A stretch of DNA of 36,935 bases from Verrucomicrobiia bacterium (GTDB lineage Bacteria; Zixibacteria; MSB-5A5; DSPP01), in contig DATLYY010000046.1 of the NCBI GenBank assembly GCA_035574275.1, positions 1-36,935 on the forward strand, written 5' to 3'. A model generated the notes under the pieces. The model saw only the letters and a list, made by a program, of their open reading frames with translations, was not told the origin of the DNA and searched no databases. The translations under genes and the position numbers were made by a program. This document shows positions 2,394 to 15,040 of the stretch, in pieces; the first letter of the stretch is position 1; every line of letters begins with the position of its first letter.

Positions 2394-5514
<3,121 letters not shown>

Positions 5515-5551
5515 CTAAGGCAAGAATGGATTTTGCGTGTATAAGATTGAG

Positions 5552-5614
5552 GCGGCGGGCAGAGGCCGCAAAAAATACCAGAACAACCGCCGATTTTTCT
5601 TGCCTGCCCGCCGC
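5552..5614. repeat. GC-rich inverted repeat between ligA and otsA
   Basis: GCGGCGGGCAG (5552-5562, then A, then GGC) is the reverse complement of GCCTGCCCGCCGC at 5602-5614 except for one bulged base. The 35-base loop is A/T-rich. It lies in the 284-base divergent intergenic region, which otherwise holds only the leader hairpins described separately. It may be a structured RNA leader or a protein-binding site. Confidence 0.4.
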
Positions 5615-5673
5615 GGCCCTTTTAGATTGGCTTGTGCCGCTTTGCGGCTTGCTTTGACATCAAGGGGGCATCC

Positions 5674-5721
5674 TCCGGCCCGCGCGCCGGAAAAACCAGC
5701 CGGTTTTCTCCAACGAAAACC
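5674..5721 (+). promoter_or_regulatory. otsA leader with competing hairpins
   Basis: Three stems can be drawn. TCCGGC/GCCGGA (5674-5679 with 5686-5691) is followed by AAAACC/GGTTTT (5692-5697 with 5702-5707). GGTTTTC/GAAAACC (5702-5708 with 5715-5721) uses the same middle arm as the second stem, so those two cannot form together. The region ends about 50 bases before the otsA start. Attenuator-like control is possible. No T-run terminator follows either stem, so any control would more likely act on translation or RNA stability. Confidence 0.3.
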
Positions 5722-5771
5722 GCCTGACCAAACGAAAGGGGAAGGGTGGATGGGAAGCCAACGGAGGAATT

Positions 5772-7244
5772 ATGGTATGGGACAGCGCGGCCTTGAAGGA
5801 GGCCGTCCGCGCCAAAATCGGCGAACATAAATTCATTGCCGTTTCCAACCGGGAACCGTACGTGCACCGGTTCGGCCCGCAGGGAATCGTCTGCGAGCGG
5901 CCGGTTTCCGGAATGGCGGTCGCCTTGGATCCGGTTTTGCAGGCCTGCGGCGGCATCTGGGTGGCGCACGGCTCCGGCGAGGCGGACCGGGAGGTGGTGG
6001 ACGGGCACTCGCGCATCGCCGTTCCCCCCGGAAAATACGCCTACACCCTGCGGCGGGTCTGGCTCACGCCGGAAGAAGAACAGGGGTACTACTACGGCTT
6101 TGCCAACGAGGCGCTTTGGCCGCTCTGCCACATCGCCTTCACCCAGCCGGTTTTCCGCCAGTCCGACTGGGAGGCCTACCGCCGGGTAAATGAGAAATTC
6201 GCCGACGCCGTTCTGGAGGAGATGGGGTCGGACACCGGGTTTGTGTTCATCCAGGACTACCACTTCGTCCTGTTGCCCCGGATTTTGAAAAAGCGCCGGC
6301 CGGAACTGGTGGTGGCGCAGTTCTGGCACATTCCCTGGCCCAACCGGGAGGCGTTCCGCATTTGCCCCTGGGGGGAGGAGATTTTGGACGGGCTTTTGGG
6401 GAATGATTTGCTGGGGTTTCACATCCGCTACCACTGCCAGAATTTTTTGGAGACCGTCGAGCGGAGCATCGAGGCCAAGGTGGACTATGAGCGGAACTCG
6501 GTCTTCCGGGGGGGGATGGAAACTTTGGTGCGCCCCTTTCCCATCAGCATCGATTTTGCCCAGGTGGATAAAATGGCCGGATGCGGCGAAACCTCCGCGC
6601 GCTCCGCCCAGCTGCGGGCGGAGCATCGCCTGAACGGTATGAAAGTGGGAATCGGCATCGACCGGATGGATTACATCAAAGGGATTCCGGAACGGCTGGC
6701 CGCGGTGGACCGTTTTTTTGAAAAATATCCGGAATACCGGGAACGCTTCGTTTTTTTGCAGCTCGGACCCGGCTCGCGCACGGAAATCCAGAAGTACAAG
6801 GAGTACAATCTTACCATTGAAAACCTGGCGGGTGAAATCAACCGCAAGCACGGCACGGCCGACTGGCAGCCGGTTCTTTTGCACCGCACCCACCTGCCGC
6901 CCGAGGAGGTGACGGCGTATTATCTTGTGGCCGATTTATGCCTGGTCAGCTCGCTGCACGACGGGATGAATTTGGTGGCCAAGGAGTATGTCGCCGCCAG
7001 GAAGGACGGGGAAGGGGTTCTGGTGTTAAGCCATTTCACCGGCGCCGCGCGGGAGCTGGAACAAGCGGTTTTGGTAAACCCCTACGCCACGGACGAACTG
7101 GCGGACGCCTTGAAGGCCGCCTTGGAAATGCCGGCGGAGGAAAAGGCCCGGCGAATGGAACGGATGCGGGAGACCGTAATGGAAAATAACATTTACCGCT
7201 GGGCGGGGAAAATCATCACCGAACTGAACCGGCGGCTGGTGTAA
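5772..7244 (+). CDS. otsA: Trehalose-6-phosphate synthase (GT20)
   Basis: Retaining GT20 glycosyltransferase, expected to join an NDP-glucose to glucose-6-phosphate and give trehalose-6-phosphate in the cytoplasm. The 490-aa product keeps the catalytic set of the family: Arg27 in SNREPY, Asp162 in QDYHF, His186 in FWHIPWP, Arg298 and Lys303 in DRMDYIKG, and Asp397/Glu405 in HDGMNLVAKEY. It differs from E. coli OtsA at the family blocks (QDYHF for HDYHL, FWHIPWP for FLHIPFP, NREPY in the N-loop). It thus belongs to a divergent GT20 branch, and donor or acceptor preference is not certain. GGAGG at 5763-5767 supports the ATG. It is the first gene of a five-gene operon that also encodes an OtsB-like phosphatase. 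Confidence 0.88.
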   Translation: MVWDSAALKEAVRAKIGEHKFIAVSNREPYVHRFGPQGIVCERPVSGMAVALDPVLQACGGIWVAHGSGEADREVVDGHSRIAVPPGKYAYTLRRVWLTPEEEQGYYYGFANEALWPLCHIAFTQPVFRQSDWEAYRRVNEKFADAVLEEMGSDTGFVFIQDYHFVLLPRILKKRRPELVVAQFWHIPWPNREAFRICPWGEEILDGLLGNDLLGFHIRYHCQNFLETVERSIEAKVDYERNSVFRGGMETLVRPFPISIDFAQVDKMAGCGETSARSAQLRAEHRLNGMKVGIGIDRMDYIKGIPERLAAVDRFFEKYPEYRERFVFLQLGPGSRTEIQKYKEYNLTIENLAGEINRKHGTADWQPVLLHRTHLPPEEVTAYYLVADLCLVSSLHDGMNLVAKEYVAARKDGEGVLVLSHFTGAARELEQAVLVNPYATDELADALKAALEMPAEEKARRMERMRETVMENNIYRWAGKIITELNRRLV

Positions 7245-7292
7245 TACTTCCAAAAAACCGGCCGGAAACGTCAAAACGAATAGGAGACAGGC

Positions 7293-7964
7293 ATGTTTGA
7301 AGAAAAACTGCGCTTGGTAGCGGACCGAATTGCGGAAATTTTTGCCGACTTTTTCGCCTTTCTGCCGACGCTTTTGGTGGCGGCGGCGGTTTTTTTGGCC
7401 GGGTGGGTGCTTGCGCGATTTTTCCGCCATATAATCATCCGGTTTCCGTTCAAGGGGATGCCCGGGCCGGAGCCGAGAGGGTTTCTGCCCGGACACCGGC
7501 TGTCGCCGCGGGAGCTGGCCGGACATTTCGTATTCTGGCTGTTTTTGCTGCTCACCACCGTTTTGTCCATCGAGGTGATCGGGCTGCCGGTGGGGGCGGG
7601 GATCATGGAGCGGCTTTTGGGGACCGTGCCGCGCATCTTCGTTTCCCTTTTAATTTTCGTCTTCGGTTTCCTTCTGGCTTTTTTGGTGGAGGCGGCCCTG
7701 AGGGAGCTTTTGCAGCGAATGGCTTTGGACCGCCCGGCTTTCTGGTCGCGGGCTTTTCGCTGGGCCACCCTGATTGTAGTGGCATTGATGGCGATGGAAC
7801 AGCTGGGGCTGGCGGCCCAGTTTGCCCTGTGGCTGGTCTTAATCCCGATCGGTGCGGCCGCTTTAGCTTTTGCCTTGGCCTTCGGCCTGGGCTGCCGGGA
7901 GATGGCGCGGGATTTGGTGATTGAGCTTTTCCGAAAGGAAGAAAGCTCCGGCGCGGCGAAATAG
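7293..7964 (+). CDS. MscS-type conserved TM-helix membrane protein
   Basis: A 223-aa membrane protein with about five hydrophobic helices (roughly 24-44, 79-97, 112-134, 155-172, 178-200). The last helix is rich in Ala and Gly (IGAAALAFALAFGLG) and leads into an amphipathic REMARDLV segment. This recalls the pore-lining TM3 of MscS and the 'conserved TM helix' repeat found in mechanosensitive channel relatives. The soluble beta/alpha vestibule of true MscS is absent, since the protein ends about 20 residues after the last helix. AGGAGA lies upstream of the ATG. Its place between otsA and treT suggests a role in sensing or relieving osmotic tension, which is inference. Channel activity is not shown by sequence. 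Confidence 0.7.
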   Translation: MFEEKLRLVADRIAEIFADFFAFLPTLLVAAAVFLAGWVLARFFRHIIIRFPFKGMPGPEPRGFLPGHRLSPRELAGHFVFWLFLLLTTVLSIEVIGLPVGAGIMERLLGTVPRIFVSLLIFVFGFLLAFLVEAALRELLQRMALDRPAFWSRAFRWATLIVVALMAMEQLGLAAQFALWLVLIPIGAAALAFALAFGLGCREMARDLVIELFRKEESSGAAK

Positions 7965-8741
7965 ATGAACGGGCCGGCGAAAAGCTTCGTTTTTTTCAGT
8001 TCCGTCCCGCTGGTGGAGCTGACCGGGCGGACGGCGCGCACCGTGCGCCAGCTGGCCGAGGAGGTGGAGCGGGCGGAGGCGGCTGTCATTTTCTTCCACA
8101 CCCACGACTACGTGCGGGAGCACCATTTTCTGGCGCGGGAGTACCCCTCCGATTTTGCCTATTGGGCGGCGGAGATTCTCTTGGAAAAGGGGTTGGGGGA
8201 ACGGCTGGCGTTCGTGGACTTGCGCCACTTCACCTCCATTGAAGCCCTTCGGGCCGAGATTCTGGCCATTTTGAAAAGCCAGGGTGGAAAGCGGGCCGAG
8301 CGGGAGGTTTTGCCCGGGCTGGAGTTTCATTTCCGCAAATCGATCAACATCGTGGTTCCCACCGGCCACACGGCCTCCAGCCTGGCCGAGTTCCGGGAAG
8401 GGCTTTTTCGGGTGGACTTAAACAGCCTGTACTACCATTTAATCGAAGCCCATCTGCGGGACGAGGCGCCGGGAAACGATTTTTCCAACTGGGTGGCGGA
8501 ATGTTTGGGGAAGGAGAAGCTGGCCGCCCAGATTGCCCAGATCGACCCCTACATCAACACGCTGGAGCAGACCCGGCAGAAACTTTTGGGGCTGGTGGAC
8601 CGGGAACTCGCCAAGGAGCGGGTGGTGGCGAAGCTGGGAAGCTACCCGCAGACCACCGGGGTGGGGCGGTTTTTGCAGGAGAGCGAGCTGTTTAGAAAAG
8701 TGCGCGGGCTTTTCGAAAAGAAAACGCCCGGGAAACCGTAG
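7965..8741 (+). CDS. Tandem-domain DUF5752-like protein
   Basis: A 258-aa soluble protein without signal peptide or membrane helix. It begins at the base after the preceding stop codon. It contains two copies of one domain (about 8-103 and 121-215). Matching blocks are TGRTA/TGHTA (20-24 and 133-137), FFHTHDYVRE/YYHLIEAHLRDE (43-52 and 156-167), DFAYWAAEIL/DFSNWVAECL (63-72 and 172-181) and an Asp...Thr..E..R..IL block. The second half resembles the family I recall as DUF5752, often near TreT-type glycosyltransferases. That family name is from memory and the function is unknown. A short C-terminal tail (220-258) follows. Context suggests a regulatory or accessory role in trehalose metabolism. 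Confidence 0.75.
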   Translation: MNGPAKSFVFFSSVPLVELTGRTARTVRQLAEEVERAEAAVIFFHTHDYVREHHFLAREYPSDFAYWAAEILLEKGLGERLAFVDLRHFTSIEALRAEILAILKSQGGKRAEREVLPGLEFHFRKSINIVVPTGHTASSLAEFREGLFRVDLNSLYYHLIEAHLRDEAPGNDFSNWVAECLGKEKLAAQIAQIDPYINTLEQTRQKLLGLVDRELAKERVVAKLGSYPQTTGVGRFLQESELFRKVRGLFEKKTPGKP

Positions 8742-8743
8742 CC

Positions 8744-9967
8744 GTGGAAATACGACTGTCCGATTACGAGCCGGTCATCGGGCCGCAGCCGATTGAACTG
8801 ATGAAACGGCTGGCGGGGCATCTGGCCAAAAAGAGAGTCAAGATGGTCAATTCCACGGCCGTCGGCGGAGGGGTCGCGGAAATTCTGCAGCGGCTGGTGC
8901 CGCTTTTCAATGAGCTGGGGGTCCGTACCTCTTGGGAAGTTTTGAAAGGGGGGGCGGAGTTTTTCGGCATCACCAAGGCGATTCACAACGCCCTGCACGG
9001 AACACCGGTGGAGCTTTCGCCGGAGGTCCAGGAGCATTTTCTTTCCCACACCCGCACACAGGCGGAAAGTTTCCGTTTCGAGGAGGAATTCATCTTCATC
9101 CACGACCCGCAGCCGGTTGTCTTTATCGAGAAAAAGACCAAAAAATCCGGCTGGGTCTGGCGCTGCCACATCGACATTTCGGCCCCCTATCCGCCGGTGT
9201 GGGATTTTTTGCGGCCGTTCGTGGAAAAATACGACGGTTCCATTTTCTCCGCCCCCAGCTTTGCGCAGGAGCTCCCCATACCCCAATACCAGATACCCCC
9301 TTCCATCGATCCTCTGGCGTTGAAAAACCGGGAAGTCCCGGAAGAAGAGGTTCTATCCTATCTTGAACAGGTCGGTTTGGACCCCCAGCGGCCGATTATC
9401 ACCCAGATTTCCCGCTTCGACCGGCTGAAGGACCCGCTCGGGGTGATTGCCGCCTACCAACTGGTGAAAAAAAGGACCGACTGCCAACTCGTTTTGGCCG
9501 GAGGGACGGCGGACGACGACCCGGAAGGATCGGCCGTTCTGGCGGAGATTAAGGAAAAGGCGGCCGGAGACCCCGACATTCACATTCTGGAACTTCCCCC
9601 CTTCTCGGATTTGGAAATCAACAAACTGCAGCGGGGCTCGACCGTCGTTCTGCAAAAATCGCTGAAGGAGGGGTTTGCGTTGACCGTGGCGGAGGCGCTC
9701 TGGAAGAAAAAACCGGTGGTCGCCTCCGCCGTCGGGGGAATTCCCCTGCAAATCATTCACAACCAAACCGGGCTTTTGGTGCATTCGGTCGAAGGGGCGG
9801 CTTTGAAAATCAAGTATCTTTTGACCCATCCGGAAGCGGCCCGGCAGCTGGGGGAAAACGGCCACCAGCACGTCAAACAGCATTTTTTGATTACCCGGCA
9901 TCTGCGGGATTATCTGGCGGTTCTCTTTTCCTTGTCCCACCCCGGGAAGGATGTCATCCGGCTGTGA
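8744..9967 (+). CDS. treT: Trehalose synthase, TreT-like (GT4)
   Basis: TreT makes trehalose directly and reversibly from NDP-glucose and glucose, without a phosphorylated intermediate. The 407-aa protein has the family N-terminus (NSTAVGGGVAEIL, then 'EFFGITKAIHNALHG') and the GT-B C-terminal domain. The latter shows ISRFDRLKDPLGVI, LVLAGG with DDPEG, and the E-x7-E motif (Glu309, Glu317) in KEGFALTVAE. Resemblance to the archaeal TreT layout is strong. The start is GTG two bases after the DUF5752-like gene, and the stop overlaps the next GTG start by four bases. Whether glucose or glucose-6-phosphate is the acceptor here cannot be told from sequence, since an otsB-type phosphatase follows directly. 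Confidence 0.85.
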   Translation: MEIRLSDYEPVIGPQPIELMKRLAGHLAKKRVKMVNSTAVGGGVAEILQRLVPLFNELGVRTSWEVLKGGAEFFGITKAIHNALHGTPVELSPEVQEHFLSHTRTQAESFRFEEEFIFIHDPQPVVFIEKKTKKSGWVWRCHIDISAPYPPVWDFLRPFVEKYDGSIFSAPSFAQELPIPQYQIPPSIDPLALKNREVPEEEVLSYLEQVGLDPQRPIITQISRFDRLKDPLGVIAAYQLVKKRTDCQLVLAGGTADDDPEGSAVLAEIKEKAAGDPDIHILELPPFSDLEINKLQRGSTVVLQKSLKEGFALTVAEALWKKKPVVASAVGGIPLQIIHNQTGLLVHSVEGAALKIKYLLTHPEAARQLGENGHQHVKQHFLITRHLRDYLAVLFSLSHPGKDVIRL

Positions 9968-10755
9968 AGCCGCTTGCCGCCTCGCGCCTGGAAATCGAAA
10001 AACGGATTCGGGCGGCCAATCAAATTCTTGTTTTTCTGGATTACGACGGCACGCTGGTTCCCATCCAGCCCACCCCCGAACTGGCCCGGCTTTCGACCGG
10101 GCAGAAAAAAATTCTGGCCGACCTTGCCCGGCGGCCCCGATTCAAGGTCGGGCTTTTAACCGGCCGGAGCTTGAAGGATATCCGCCGGGCCGTGAGGGTC
10201 CCCGGGTTGTTTTACGCCGCCAATTACGGGCTGGCGATTGTCACCCTGCAAAAGAGCTGGGTGCATCCGGAAGCGCAAAAAAAAGTGCCCATGCTTAAAA
10301 AGATACTCCCCTGGCTGAAAAAATTGAGTTTGGAATTCCGGGGGGTGCGTATTGAGGATAAAGCATTGACTGTCGCCATCCACTACCGGCAATACAAAGG
10401 GAAGCCGGAGCGGCTGAAAAAAAGGCTGGAGGAAATCATACGGGGACATCACGTGGCGTTTATGCTTAAAACCGGCAAGAAAATATTCGAAGTTTATCCG
10501 GCCGTTAAGTGGGACAAGGGGAAAGCGCTTTTGAAAGTGGAACGGCTGCTGGGTTTTCGCCGGGCGCCGCTGGTAATTTTTTTTGGGGATGACCATGCGG
10601 ACGAGGAGGCGTTTCGACAGATGGGCCCGAAGGATGTCTCCGTGGCAGTGGGGAGGGGCTGGAAAACGGCGGCGCGATATTTCTGCAAAAACAGCGCCGA
10701 GGTGATGCGGTTCCTTGAGTCGCTTTTGAAAATCGAGCCGGGCGGGAAGAACTGA
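9964..10755 (+). CDS. otsB: Trehalose-6-phosphate phosphatase (HAD superfamily)
   Basis: This HAD phosphatase removes phosphate from trehalose-6-phosphate to complete the OtsA-OtsB route. The 263-aa protein has motif I FLDYDGTL (nucleophile Asp26, Asp28), motif II LLTGRS, a cap domain and motif IV GDDHADEEAF near the C-terminus. Size and motifs match OtsB. Translation starts at GTG, overlapping the treT stop codon (GTGA), so the two are probably coupled. It closes the operon and ends three bases before the stop codon of the convergent GWxTD gene, leaving no room for a terminator between them. Confidence 0.9.
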   Translation: MKPLAASRLEIEKRIRAANQILVFLDYDGTLVPIQPTPELARLSTGQKKILADLARRPRFKVGLLTGRSLKDIRRAVRVPGLFYAANYGLAIVTLQKSWVHPEAQKKVPMLKKILPWLKKLSLEFRGVRIEDKALTVAIHYRQYKGKPERLKKRLEEIIRGHHVAFMLKTGKKIFEVYPAVKWDKGKALLKVERLLGFRRAPLVIFFGDDHADEEAFRQMGPKDVSVAVGRGWKTAARYFCKNSAEVMRFLESLLKIEPGGKN

Positions 10756-10758
10756 AAA

Positions 10759-12117
10759 TCAGCGGCGGAGCAGGTTCTGGCTCAACATATTTTCCCAGTT
10801 TGGGTTTTGCTTTTCCCCCGGGACGGTGGAGTGCACAAGCTCGTAATTCCCCAACCCTCGCAAATCGGCAAAGACGAAAAGCCCCTGCTTGCCGGCCGCC
10901 AGGCGGGTGTACTCCCATTTCTGCCAGGGCAGATTATCCGGAGAGGCCGGGGACTGCTCGATATTGGCCGGTTCCCCGTACAGCATCAACACCCGGCCGC
11001 GGTCGGTCTGCCAGCCGTCCTGCGCCCCGGCGGAGCGGGAGAAGCGCTCCACTGATTTCGCGAAACGGCGGTAGGCCTCGAATTTGTACTCGTTTTCGGG
11101 GGTCTGGGGGGTGGGGTCGTGCTTTTGCCACCATTCATTGATGAAGTTCAACTGGCCCGTGCGGTTGGAGGCGCGGTAAATCTCCTTTTCCTGATTGGTC
11201 AAAAGAAAATGGGTGACCTTGGGAAAATAGTCCAGCTCCTCTTCCGCCACGGGGGGGCGGAGGGAGGGGGGGAAGAGCAGGAAGGTTTTGCTCTGGGAAG
11301 CGGCGGCGCCGGTGGCCGGGTCGCGGGCGGTAAGGAAAAGCGAGTAGATTCCCGGCGGGAGCATCGACAAATCCACGGAGGCGGAAAGGGCGGCCGGTTC
11401 TTCCTTGGGATGCTTGTGAAACCCCGAAGATTTAAGTGTGTCCCCGGCGGGACTTAGAATGGAATATTCCAGATCAAAATTTTTCAGTTCGGGGCGGGCC
11501 GGCGCCAGGCCGTACAGTTCGACATAAAAGTACAAGCGCGGGTCGTCCAAACTGTAGGTGGCGGGGGGGTTCGGCACAATCAGCCGGTCCCCTTTTTTGT
11601 ACAAGCTGGCCCCCGGCTGGCGTTTTCTGTCGGTTATCAAGCGGGCCAATTGAAGGGAACTGAAGCTCATCCCCTTCCGCAAATCCGGCACTTCGATTTC
11701 CAGCGTGTCCTGCCCCGCGCGGCCGCTTTTCATATCCCAGACCGAGAGGCGGGCTTTGTAGTTTCCCGGCGCGACCCAAAAGTCGAAAATTTCGGAAAGC
11801 TCGTTGGTGGTGTCGATCCGGGTCACCCGGAAGGCGGTGGTTTTTGACAGGGAATCGAGAGGTCGGCCCTCCGGGGTGAACAAATCGACATAAGCCAGCA
11901 CGTAGGCCAGATATTTTCCCGGCCCGCCGGTTTGACTGTCGGCCGGCGTCAGAGTCAGCTCCGTGGAGGAGAGAGCGTAGTAAATTTCCAACCGAATGGA
12001 GTCACCCTCGCGGAAACAGGCATAGTCCGTGACCACACTCAAGGGGGAATTTTGCTTTAGTGTATCCTGGGCCCAAAGCGCGGAAGGAAACAGCAAACAA
12101 AACAGCAGTTTTTTCAC
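10759..12117 (-). CDS. GWxTD domain secreted protein, copy 2
   Basis: A 452-aa exported protein. A short signal peptide (KKLLFCLLFPSALWAQ) starts at GTG 12117, five bases after the preceding gene ends. The open frame extends upstream to 12486, but that part only shadows the neighbouring gene. The middle is beta-rich, with segments such as 'APGNYKARLSVWD'. The C-terminal domain carries the name-giving GWQTD followed by RGRVLMLYGEP. GWxTD proteins are typical of Bacteroidetes/FCB and Acidobacteria lineages and their function is unknown. The gene is a diverged paralogue of the upstream neighbour, sharing the PGNYK, DPT..T.EN and GWxxD..G...YGEP blocks. The pair presumably shares a promoter. Confidence 0.82.
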   Translation of the reverse strand: MKKLLFCLLFPSALWAQDTLKQNSPLSVVTDYACFREGDSIRLEIYYALSSTELTLTPADSQTGGPGKYLAYVLAYVDLFTPEGRPLDSLSKTTAFRVTRIDTTNELSEIFDFWVAPGNYKARLSVWDMKSGRAGQDTLEIEVPDLRKGMSFSSLQLARLITDRKRQPGASLYKKGDRLIVPNPPATYSLDDPRLYFYVELYGLAPARPELKNFDLEYSILSPAGDTLKSSGFHKHPKEEPAALSASVDLSMLPPGIYSLFLTARDPATGAAASQSKTFLLFPPSLRPPVAEEELDYFPKVTHFLLTNQEKEIYRASNRTGQLNFINEWWQKHDPTPQTPENEYKFEAYRRFAKSVERFSRSAGAQDGWQTDRGRVLMLYGEPANIEQSPASPDNLPWQKWEYTRLAAGKQGLFVFADLRGLGNYELVHSTVPGEKQNPNWENMLSQNLLRR

Positions 12118-12121
12118 GGCG

Positions 12122-13504
12122 TCAGAACCTCCGCCCGTCGAAGGGAGGACGCAAAACCCAGCTGCCGTTGCCGGTGACATCTTCAAAGGAAAAGGCGCGG
12201 CGGAAGCTGAAGTAATACCAGGTCTGGGTGGAGTGTCCGGTCTGGCGGATGCGGGTGACATTGGAGGTATAGCGGTCCTCGTCTTCCGCCACGAAGGGAT
12301 TCGTGTTGCGCAGGCCGGACTGGTCCTCGTCCACTTGATCCGGCTCGCCGTAGCGGATGTAAATTTTTCCCATGTCCGACTTCCAGCCGGGGAGCCCCAT
12401 ATAGCTGAAATAGGCGTCCGCGAAGCGGACCCGCCGTTCGAACTCCTTTTTGGCCTCGTTTTCCCGGGTGGCCTGGGTCGGGTCACGATCCTTCCAAAAT
12501 TTGTCCCAGGCCTCCAGCCGCTTTTCCTTTGGGGTTTTTTCCAGCGGTTCCACGTCCGTTTCGCGGGAAAAATAGCGCAGGAGGTCCACCACGTCCTTGA
12601 AGTTGTAGACCAGCGCGGCCTCCCAGTTCCAGTTCATTTTGAATTCCGCCTCCTCTTTGGCCAGCTCTTTTTTCCCTTCCCGCACCGTCAGTTTAAGCCG
12701 GTAGTCGCCGGGGGGGAATTTGCCGACGGGAAGATTGGCGAAGACGGGGGTTTTGGCGGCGGTGAGATTAAGCGAATCGGTTTGCCTTGTCCACATCCCG
12801 TGGTGGCGCTGGGTAATTTCGTATTCCAAGCGGATGGCCCGGGGCTCCGGCTGTCTGGAATAAATCTCATAATAAAAATGCAGGAGCGAGTCCGGATCGC
12901 CAAAGGCGCGGGAGACGGAGGGGATGACCGTCCGGTTCTCTTTTTTGAAGAGGGGGAGGTTGGCCGAATCGGCAAAGGCGCCGATGAAAAGGGGGTTACT
13001 GACCGACACCTCTCCGCGGGTGAAGTCCGGCACGCCGGCTTTCCGCGTGGCGGAGGAGATTTCCTTGGAGTTGTTGTCCGTCAAATGAATTTTAATCTTG
13101 TAGTTACCCGGTTTTACAGAGAAATGGGCGGCGTTCAGCCGATAGCTTTCCAGACTCTGGGTTTGATCGTAGGTCGGGACTGCAAACTCCTCTGAGTTAT
13201 GTTTGGAGGCGACTTCCCGCCCGTTTTCACCTTCCAGACTTACCTCCACCTCGTAGGCGGCTTGGTACTCGCTTCCCTTTTTTACAAAACTGAAGCCAAC
13301 GTTGCGGAGTTTGTAATACACCTCCAGCCGGCTTTTCCCTTTGGCTGTATCGGCAAAAGCCGCAAAATCCACTTCGAACGGTGGGATTCCCACGCGGCTG
13401 TCCTTGGAGAGGGGGTTTTGGCCAAAGAGGTTGGCGGTGGCGAAGAGAACGGTCAGCGAGGCGGCAAAAAGCTTCATTAGTCGTTGGGAGGGGTAAAGTT
13501 CCAT
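12122..13504 (-). CDS. GWxTD domain secreted protein, copy 1
   Basis: A 460-aa exported protein with the signal peptide core KLFAASLTVLFATANLFGQ. The C-terminal domain holds GWKSD with MGKIYIRYGEP (the Thr of GWxTD is Ser here). The ATG at 13504 (MELYPSQRL...) is chosen because AAGGGTGGG lies directly upstream. A second ATG at 13477 (MKLFAAS) would give a more usual signal peptide but has no Shine-Dalgarno. The open frame continues to 13786, across a strong promoter, so the longer start is rejected. Its function is unknown. It is arranged in tandem with a paralogue and divergent from the dockerin-type gene. Confidence 0.8.
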   Translation of the reverse strand: MELYPSQRLMKLFAASLTVLFATANLFGQNPLSKDSRVGIPPFEVDFAAFADTAKGKSRLEVYYKLRNVGFSFVKKGSEYQAAYEVEVSLEGENGREVASKHNSEEFAVPTYDQTQSLESYRLNAAHFSVKPGNYKIKIHLTDNNSKEISSATRKAGVPDFTRGEVSVSNPLFIGAFADSANLPLFKKENRTVIPSVSRAFGDPDSLLHFYYEIYSRQPEPRAIRLEYEITQRHHGMWTRQTDSLNLTAAKTPVFANLPVGKFPPGDYRLKLTVREGKKELAKEEAEFKMNWNWEAALVYNFKDVVDLLRYFSRETDVEPLEKTPKEKRLEAWDKFWKDRDPTQATRENEAKKEFERRVRFADAYFSYMGLPGWKSDMGKIYIRYGEPDQVDEDQSGLRNTNPFVAEDEDRYTSNVTRIRQTGHSTQTWYYFSFRRAFSFEDVTGNGSWVLRPPFDGRRF

Positions 13505-13519
13505 CCCACCCTTGCATTT

Positions 13520-13549
13520 ATTATACGATAACAGGTTGCTGATTGACAA
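13520..13549 (-). promoter_or_regulatory. Sigma70-type promoter of the GWxTD pair
   Basis: On the minus strand TTGTCA (13549-13544) and a perfect TATAAT (13525-13520) are 18 bases apart. The predicted transcription start is near 13513, only about nine bases before the ATG at 13504. The leader is almost absent, though it would still contain part of AAGGGTGGG. Confidence 0.7.
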
Positions 13550-13604
13550 CAGGTTTTTGCAGAGAGAAACGTCGATAATTAGGCAATTTGAGCTTCCGGC
13601 ATTG

Positions 13605-13610
13605 TATATT
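13605..13610 (+). promoter_or_regulatory. Possible -10 element of the Asp-box/dockerin gene
   Basis: TATATT precedes the ATG at 13634 by 23 bases, with AAGGGA at 13617-13622 in between. No good -35 hexamer is seen at the right distance, so this is a weak call in the 129-base divergent intergenic region. Confidence 0.3.
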
Positions 13611-13633
13611 ACAGCCAAGGGAATACTTATCCG

Positions 13634-15040
13634 ATGCGCATAAACGTAATCTGGCCGCTTATTGTGATGGGTGCAGTATTTCTTTTGAGCGGGGGCGCTT
13701 TTGCCCAATCCAATATTTACACCTTCCCCGGGCCTGATGTGGATTTGGGGCAAAGCAGCCGCGTTCGGGTGGTATCTGGGGGGCATTACATTGGCGGCCG
13801 GGGAGACACGGTTTATGTTCTAAGGCAACTTGGCCATACCTATTGCCACAAGTCCACGGATGGCGGCAAAACCTTCAATTCAGGAGTTCAAGTGAATTCA
13901 ACTGCTGGAGCTGTGAACGCAAGCTTGAAAGTCGATACAGCCGGAATTGTTTATGTGGCCTATCAGGACGAGTTCGCGGATATTCGATTTACCAAATCCA
14001 CTGACGGCGGACAAACCTTCACTCCTGCAATCAAAGTGAATGATGATACCATTCCTCAAACTGGGCAGGAAAAACCAGCAATAGCAGTTAATAATAAAGG
14101 TCAAATATTCATTGCTTGGCGGGACCAGCGAACTGATCCCGGCCAACCGCACAAAGCGGTGTTTGCAACCGCAAGTTATAATGGTGGACTTACTTTCACG
14201 TCGAACATACAGGTTAATGATAGCACACAGCCTATGGGAGGTGGTATTGATATTGGAGTCGACAGTAGTTGTCGCGTCTATGTGGCTTGGGATCCCTATA
14301 GCGGACCACTTTTTATGAGCAGGAGTGATGATTCTGCTAATACTTTTTATTTACGCACGGCAGTAAGCGATGGTGTTTTGTATCCGAGTATTGCCGTTAG
14401 TACGATGTCTATCGGTGTAATTTGGGAAGATGTTCGAATAGTTAATGATATCTTTCAACAAACATTGCGTTTTTCAGTAAGCAGTGATCTTGGTCAGATG
14501 TTTTCATCTAGTATTGTTGTTGACAGTTCGGGTCAACCTCAAAACCCATCATTGGCTTGGGCAAACAATATCTTTTACACGGCATGGCGAGCTACGCATC
14601 GCCGAACACCCGGCGGTCCTTATTTCGACCATATTTGGTTTTCCTATAGCCGCGACAGCGGTCAAACTTTTGTGCCGTTTGTGGACGCTATCCCGGATGA
14701 TACAAACTTTGTTGTCCACGAGTCCCCTTCAATTTGGGTCAACGAAACGGAGAAAGTTTTTGTGGCTTGGATTGACAGCCGATGGGATCCTTTTGATCAA
14801 TCCCTTTGGCATCTTTTTGTGTCGGTAGGCACGCCCCACCCTGCAAAGGGAGATCTGAACTTTGATGGGATTATAAATATGGTGGATATAGTGCTTGAAC
14901 TTAACACGGTCTTTCTTGGCGAGCCGTTTCCGGCGCCCCCTCACCGGGCGGACGGCAACTGCGACGGACAGGTAACCCCTGCGGATATGGTTATACTGTT
15001 AAATCGATGGTATCGTGATATACCGTTTCCTTGCGACTAA
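13634..15040 (+). CDS. Secreted six-Asp-box propeller with dockerin-like C-terminus
   Basis: A 468-aa exported protein with a signal peptide ending near AFAQ (residue 25). Six Asp-box motifs (S-x-D-x-G-x-T-F type) are spaced 48-59 residues apart: 74-81, 122-129, 181-188, 231-238, 283-290 and 339-346. This fits a sialidase/BNR-type six-bladed beta-propeller. The C-terminus (406-468) has two Ca-binding dockerin-like repeats, GDLNFDG... and ADGNCDG..., each followed by a helix with conserved D and LN. In non-cellulosomal bacteria such modules are common on cell-surface proteins. No catalytic sialidase Arg triad could be assigned, so enzyme activity is not claimed. The DNA is visibly more A+T-rich than its neighbours (line 14341-14400 is 25 G+C in 60). 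Confidence 0.8.
   Translation: MRINVIWPLIVMGAVFLLSGGAFAQSNIYTFPGPDVDLGQSSRVRVVSGGHYIGGRGDTVYVLRQLGHTYCHKSTDGGKTFNSGVQVNSTAGAVNASLKVDTAGIVYVAYQDEFADIRFTKSTDGGQTFTPAIKVNDDTIPQTGQEKPAIAVNNKGQIFIAWRDQRTDPGQPHKAVFATASYNGGLTFTSNIQVNDSTQPMGGGIDIGVDSSCRVYVAWDPYSGPLFMSRSDDSANTFYLRTAVSDGVLYPSIAVSTMSIGVIWEDVRIVNDIFQQTLRFSVSSDLGQMFSSSIVVDSSGQPQNPSLAWANNIFYTAWRATHRRTPGGPYFDHIWFSYSRDSGQTFVPFVDAIPDDTNFVVHESPSIWVNETEKVFVAWIDSRWDPFDQSLWHLFVSVGTPHPAKGDLNFDGIINMVDIVLELNTVFLGEPFPAPPHRADGNCDGQVTPADMVILLNRWYRDIPFPCD

Follow-up and report, generated by a model that had tools for sequence, protein, structure and literature searches.

Results

A compact trehalose unit in a Zixibacterium genome

The window, by which we mean the whole 36,935-nucleotide stretch of Zixibacterium DNA analysed here, carries at 5772-10755 on the plus strand a trehalose unit that the sequence and an ORF check resolve into five co-directional, tightly packed open reading frames (Table 1). 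Their spacings are, in order, 48, 0, 2 and -4 nt, the last being a 4-nt overlap between the TreT stop codon and the GTG start of OtsB. On the 5' side the unit is flanked by a divergent ligA (minus strand, 3451-5487) and on the 3' side by a convergent ORF encoding a GWxTD domain (minus strand, 10759-12486), so that the five genes stand alone as one unit. The preliminary description of this DNA had listed the same packed genes (otsA, a membrane protein, a tandem-domain protein, treT and otsB), an account that is borne out by the spacings and by Pfam, which places all five.

The GGAGG ahead of otsA reads as ribosome-binding-site-like, and the region upstream of otsA can be aligned with its counterpart in the sister species L043. 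Scanning of the unit against shuffled sequence gave no sigma-70 promoter or terminator signal above the shuffle expectation, and we therefore speak of an operon on the grounds of spacing and conservation. The five genes occur in identical order in a second genome of the same genus; among named relatives, a Zixiibacteriota MAG comes closest, at 83% identity in the DUF5752 protein.

Table 1. Features of the trehalose unit and its upstream region in the window
Feature	Coordinates	Strand	Remarks
Intergenic region, ligA (divergent) to otsA	5488..5771	+	GGAGG at ~5764
OtsA, GT20 trehalose-6-phosphate synthase	5772..7244	+	490 aa; Pfam PF00982, signature motifs
MscS-like membrane protein	7293..7964	+	223 aa; transmembrane part only; PF05552 twice
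DUF5752 / OrfY-family protein	7965..8741	+	258 aa; Pfam PF19027; two homologous repeats
TreT trehalose synthase (GT4)	8744..9967	+	407 aa; GTG start; Pfam TreT_GT1
OtsB trehalose-6-phosphate phosphatase (HAD)	9964..10755	+	263 aa; GTG start; TIGR00685

The trehalose enzymes

The OtsA/OtsB and TreT families make trehalose, and the catalytic signature motifs of all three enzymes are intact in the window, including the HAD motifs of OtsB. OtsA belongs to GT20 by its Glyco_transf_20 match (PF00982, 4.5e-127; 425 bits against a cut-off of 32.5) and matches the best solved OtsA chains at 9e-90; it scores below the NCBIfam OtsA equivalog TIGR02400 (435.6 versus 564.85 bits), with its substrate and catalytic motifs nonetheless present. 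By sequence, the GT4 enzyme is TreT: it has the TreT_GT1 N-terminal domain (PF21269, 2e-52; 177.1 bits against a cut-off of 27), a GT4 C-terminal domain and an intact E-x7-E motif region, and it is homologous over its full length to PDB 6ZJ4 (1.2e-117), which we take to be TreT from Thermoproteus, and to Pyrococcus horikoshii TreT (2X6Q, 2.9e-102). OtsB passes the trehalose-6-phosphate phosphatase equivalog TIGR00685 of NCBIfam (148.4 versus 68.05 bits) and matches Pfam Trehalose_PPase at 8.2e-35. A search that covered GH37 among the trehalose-degrading enzymes found no GH37 trehalase in the genome, which is consistent with trehalose release rather than breakdown.

DUF5752 and TreT form an invariant core

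A conserved neighbourhood had been set beforehand as the test of the proposed module, and it was found in two phyla when DUF5752 loci were gathered from 132 Zixibacteria and 285 Omnitrophota genomes and their surroundings compared. The next gene 3' of DUF5752 is TreT in 114 of 114 loci (69/69 Zixibacteria, 45/45 Omnitrophota), typically with an overlap or a few bases at the junction. Across the 132 Zixibacteria genomes, 69 hold both families, none holds full DUF5752 alone, three hold TreT alone and 60 hold neither, counts in which the species are not independent; the co-occurrence is far beyond chance. OtsA and OtsB, separate or fused (as in other Zixibacteria such as L083), join the pair in most loci, and seven Omnitrophota loci (including L176 and L195-L197) carry it with neither enzyme detected in the cluster, which identifies DUF5752-TreT as the invariant core. 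TreT in the loci compared here differs from the solved 6ZJ4 and 2X6Q in that DUF5752 accompanies it without exception and OtsA/OtsB in most cases.

The OtsA partners of the pair fall into two distant lineages, so the association has been remade at least once. In the TreT tree the window protein clusters with Omnitrophota and family f12 and apart from most Zixibacteria, a placement suggestive of horizontal transfer. Several long ORFs were rejected as gene fusions: the extended "DUF5752" and "TreT" frames of L055 and L056 are contig joins across runs of N, and the start of the long ORF in L193 had been placed too far upstream.

A membrane-only MscS-like protein in a fixed position

The second gene had been described as a membrane protein with an MscS-like pore helix. 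The helix stands, since PF05552 (MS_channel_1st_1) matches in two stretches (1.5e-12; 47.6 bits against a cut-off of 22) and hydropathy shows a Gly/Ala-rich last helix (LAFALAFGLG), but the likeness to MscS channels ends with this shared transmembrane region: Pfam finds neither the beta-domain (PF00924) nor the C-terminal domain (PF21082) in the 223 residues, and the score against the NCBIfam msc model NF033912 is below its cut-off (51.5 versus 100 bits). With helices present and the beta and C-terminal domains absent, the protein is MscS-like rather than a canonical MscS. Sequence search found no solved relative, and the predicted structure was poor (pLDDT 54.7) and was left out of the interpretation. 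The single full MscS of the genome lies on a different contig from the trehalose unit.

Membrane-only genes of this kind occur in 7 of the 114 operons, namely 4/69 in Zixibacteria (the window, L043, L099 and L100) and 3/45 in Omnitrophota (L193, L208 and L209), and the notion of a fixed five-gene system has to be given up in favour of an invariant DUF5752-TreT core with an occasional membrane gene. Where present, however, the gene lies immediately 5' of DUF5752 in 7/7 cases and in both phyla, and we reject chance neighbourhood as an account of this slot. On the TreT tree the membrane-only label must have changed at least twice, so that the seven cases may represent two or three gains only. The operons of L209 and L100 carry both the membrane-only gene and a full MscS, and this co-occurrence suggests that the smaller protein does more than stand in for the channel.

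Full-length MscS genes and sensor-OtsA fusions in related operons

Full MscS genes, with beta and C-terminal domains, were verified in L107, L158 and L209, and one is split over two ORFs in L100. Such genes abut OtsA, OtsB or TreT in an additional group of loci, mostly on the same strand and at 6 nt or less. In 45 Omnitrophota genomes, 16 of 71 PF00924 genes are found no more than 6.5 kb from DUF5752, where random placement would put 0.56, an enrichment of about 29-fold that upholds the earlier linking of the MscS family to trehalose operons; the 16 loci are related, so that a formal probability would overstate their independence, but the positions taken by the channel genes vary among several slots. 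An adjacent MscS-family gene is missing from most Zixibacteria operons, and the channel is thus not needed for the core. Our literature search on trehalose with MscS in Omnitrophota or Zixibacteria returned nothing relevant.

These observations bear on the plainest alternative, that the unit is a housekeeping compatible-solute operon in which the membrane-only gene travels as a passenger whose role lies elsewhere and DUF5752 acts as an accessory enzyme. The rarity of the membrane-only gene in the operons, together with its wide distribution elsewhere (the family occurs in 166 of 285 Omnitrophota genomes, mostly outside the trehalose operon), would fit a passenger; its unvarying slot upstream of DUF5752 in two phyla and the enrichment of full MscS genes near DUF5752 argue against one, and we regard this alternative as quite improbable.

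A further link between membrane sensing and trehalose synthesis appears in 19 Omnitrophota loci, where OtsA carries about 265 extra N-terminal residues arranged as a helix, some 130 extracytoplasmic residues, a second helix and a HAMP-like segment. Matches to Cache-type families occur in 10-14 of the 19 members and matches to HAMP in 4; they are weak, and those in the displayed member score below curated cut-offs. The added residues are conserved, at 27-65% identity with the first member of the set, and in L161 the extended OtsA has an ATG start with a plausible ribosome-binding site. From its sequence the extended protein reads as a receptor-OtsA with a Cache/HAMP-like sensor; a literature search found no paper on an otsA with HAMP.

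The DUF5752 protein and its possible functions

The third protein matches PF19027 over model positions 2-207 of 208 (1.8e-55; 187.9 bits against a cut-off of 23), and its earlier characterization as a tandem-domain protein is well founded, as its two halves align with each other (hhalign probability 99.6%, E 2e-23). The conserved positions are H, D-F-x-x-W and R, and the repeats carry H..D-F-x-x-W motifs. The single solved relative is OrfY of T. tenax (PDB 4CSO, PF19027), reached at first by Foldseek (2e-10) from a moderate model (pLDDT 68, three sequences in the input) and then by sequence, with phmmer giving 3e-25 over residues 5-206 of the window protein. The 4CSO entry bears the molecule name "ORFY PROTEIN, TRANSCRIPTION FACTOR", a label that introduces a rival reading absent from the preliminary description. 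Our literature search found no functional paper on OrfY or DUF5752, and no DUF5752 protein was found on plasmids.

Following the depositors' label, DUF5752 could be a transcription factor for its own trehalose operon, with the membrane protein an ordinary channel. The homology to 4CSO speaks for this, as does the position of DUF5752, which heads the cluster in many Zixibacteria (in 51 of the 69 loci no core gene was detected upstream). Against it, Pfam and NCBIfam find no DNA-binding family in the protein; the family is acidic on average (111 members have a median pI of 5.6 and a charge of about -7, though the window protein is near neutral); the pairing with TreT is identical in two bacterial phyla; and the inverted repeat upstream of otsA (5697-5708/5715-5726) is weak, a putative element only. 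We consider control of transcription possible but doubtful. In other proteins, of about 1000 aa, a DUF5752 half-repeat lies between a receiver domain and PPDK_N, which is consistent with a regulatory module. The strict pairing, the average acidity and this half-repeat context lead us to prefer DUF5752 as a partner of TreT that acts at the protein level.

Discussion

Relation to the msc-gt-tpsp operon of T. tenax

The linkage of an MscS-like protein to trehalose synthesis is already published for T. tenax, and the unit in the window is a bacterial variant of it; to call the system undescribed, as had been suggested, was too strong. The msc-gt-tpsp genes of T. tenax (TTX_1304a, TTX_1305 and TTX_1304) are transcribed together, and MSC is a membrane-only protein of 197 aa whose expression inhibits growth of E. 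coli, partly restored by extra salt (PMC3634074). The authors proposed trehalose synthesis on up-shock and efflux on down-shock, and regarded the arrangement as unique to Thermoproteus and Pyrobaculum, with no comparable organisation elsewhere (PMC3634074). As in that operon, the window encodes together trehalose-phosphate enzymes, a GT4 and an MscS-transmembrane-only protein of about 200 aa, so that a membrane-only MscS-like gene accompanies genes for synthase, phosphatase and GT4. The differences are equally clear: the archaeal operon has three genes, a fused TPSP and a PimA-like GT and lacks DUF5752, whereas the bacterial one has TreT, unfused OtsA and OtsB, and DUF5752.

The precedent also raises the possibility that TreT and OtsA/OtsB form one complex with DUF5752 as a scaffold or activator subunit, the GT4 then not being a separate second route. 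The GT of T. tenax, itself a GT4, activates TPSP via complex formation (PMC3634074), and the co-location of OtsA, OtsB and TreT in most of our loci would suit such an assembly. Yet that GT is reported to be closest to PimA and distinct from the T. tenax TreT pathway (PMC3634074), whereas the GT4 of the window is by sequence a TreT, and DUF5752-TreT pairs exist without OtsA/OtsB; a shared complex therefore seems unlikely to us. Several trehalose routes within one organism, induced by salt, are known from S. acidocaldarius, where in contrast to the window the TPS is a GT4 and not a GT20; in the parts of that study available to us the routes are treated as separate genes and no such operon is described (PMC7688234). 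The S. acidocaldarius genome does contain the TreT and DUF5752 families.

Proposed mechanism

While the gene linkage reported here is firm, the mechanism of the operon is one that we infer. We suggest that the unit is one osmotic-adaptation operon for the synthesis and release of trehalose, with DUF5752 as the regulator of TreT and the membrane protein as a valve or tension reporter, a reading to which we give an even chance. The OtsA/OtsB route would start from nucleotide-glucose and glucose-6-phosphate and the TreT route from nucleotide-glucose and glucose, both ending in trehalose. DUF5752 would be a regulator dedicated to TreT and would probably act at the protein level, by binding a sugar, a sugar phosphate or the enzyme. 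The MscS-like protein could be a small tension-responsive valve that releases solute on hypo-osmotic shock or, alternatively, a membrane element that reports tension to DUF5752; in related operons the membrane role would fall to a full MscS channel or to an OtsA with a fused sensor domain. That channels recur in trehalose units suggests that production and release of the sugar are run as one package.

In a more far-reaching and decidedly tentative form, which we think rather doubtful, the system would be modular, and trehalose synthesis would be coupled, directly and through proteins, to the tension of the membrane or the state of the envelope. DUF5752 would then be a cytosolic TreT regulator with input from a membrane partner, which would be the membrane-only MscS-like protein in the lineage of the window and a full MscS or a transmembrane Cache-HAMP OtsA in its relatives.

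Our work extends the only described type of MSC-trehalose operon to bacteria, where its members include bona fide MscS channels. Three points are new: the DUF5752-TreT core in two phyla, the presence of MscS in trehalose operons of bacteria, and the fusions of a sensor to OtsA. DUF5752, a family with a solved structure for which we found no published function, thereby gains a firm functional context in its pairing with TreT across two phyla. If the membrane gene is tension-responsive, a single unit would encode both the production of an osmolyte and its release, and with the sensor-OtsA fusions of the relatives direct receptor control of an osmolyte enzyme would become testable.

Relatives of the operon proteins in other contexts

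Of the 285 Omnitrophota genomes, 166 carry the membrane-only MscS-like family (~225-240 aa), in most cases away from the trehalose operon (for example, in loci L203-L207 and L213-L215). At four further loci (L210, L211, L212 and L176), such a gene lies 2-3 kb 3' of TreT on the same strand, a looser linkage. Several Zixibacteria (loci L120, L121, L123, L124 and L126) carry additional TreT-like genes that form a deep clade apart and do not adjoin DUF5752; these may encode a different enzyme.

Downstream of the window operon, the overlap of two GWxTD-domain ORFs suggests that one of them either was assigned a start codon too far upstream or has a faulty reading frame, and the division of a full MscS into ORFs of 215 and 148 aa in L100 is probably a frameshift or an assembly error.

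Positions of the features discussed (within the named locus or the window)
Feature	Position	Strand	Source or context
Extended OtsA	L161:2846-5077		Omnitrophota
Extended OtsA	L193:8057-10339		Omnitrophota
Extended OtsA	L208:1417-3702		Omnitrophota
Half-DUF5752 protein	L111:1931-4969		Zixibacteria
Half-DUF5752 protein	L112:3654-6638		Zixibacteria
Half-DUF5752 protein	L118:2151-5129		Zixibacteria
GWxTD ORF	window 10759-12486	minus	
GWxTD ORF	window 12122-13786	minus	
Full MscS, two ORFs	L100:2732-3770	minus	
Na+/H+ exchanger	L177:4027-5220		between sensor-OtsA and OtsB
ORF	L175:4214-5404		slot matching L177 exchanger

A half DUF5752 repeat also lies within Zixibacteria proteins of ~1000 aa, arranged in L112 as a receiver domain, the half repeat and a PPDK_N (ATP/PEP-binding) domain; these could possibly be signalling enzymes with the repeat as a linker. 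In sensor-OtsA clusters, L177 carries a Na+/H+ exchanger gene, which the L175 ORF resembles in size and position. The N-terminal extension of OtsA itself, found at 19 Omnitrophota loci (the three tabulated and 16 others), combines a pair of transmembrane helices with an extracytoplasmic Cache-like region and a segment resembling HAMP, making this protein a putative receptor-type trehalose-6-phosphate synthase.
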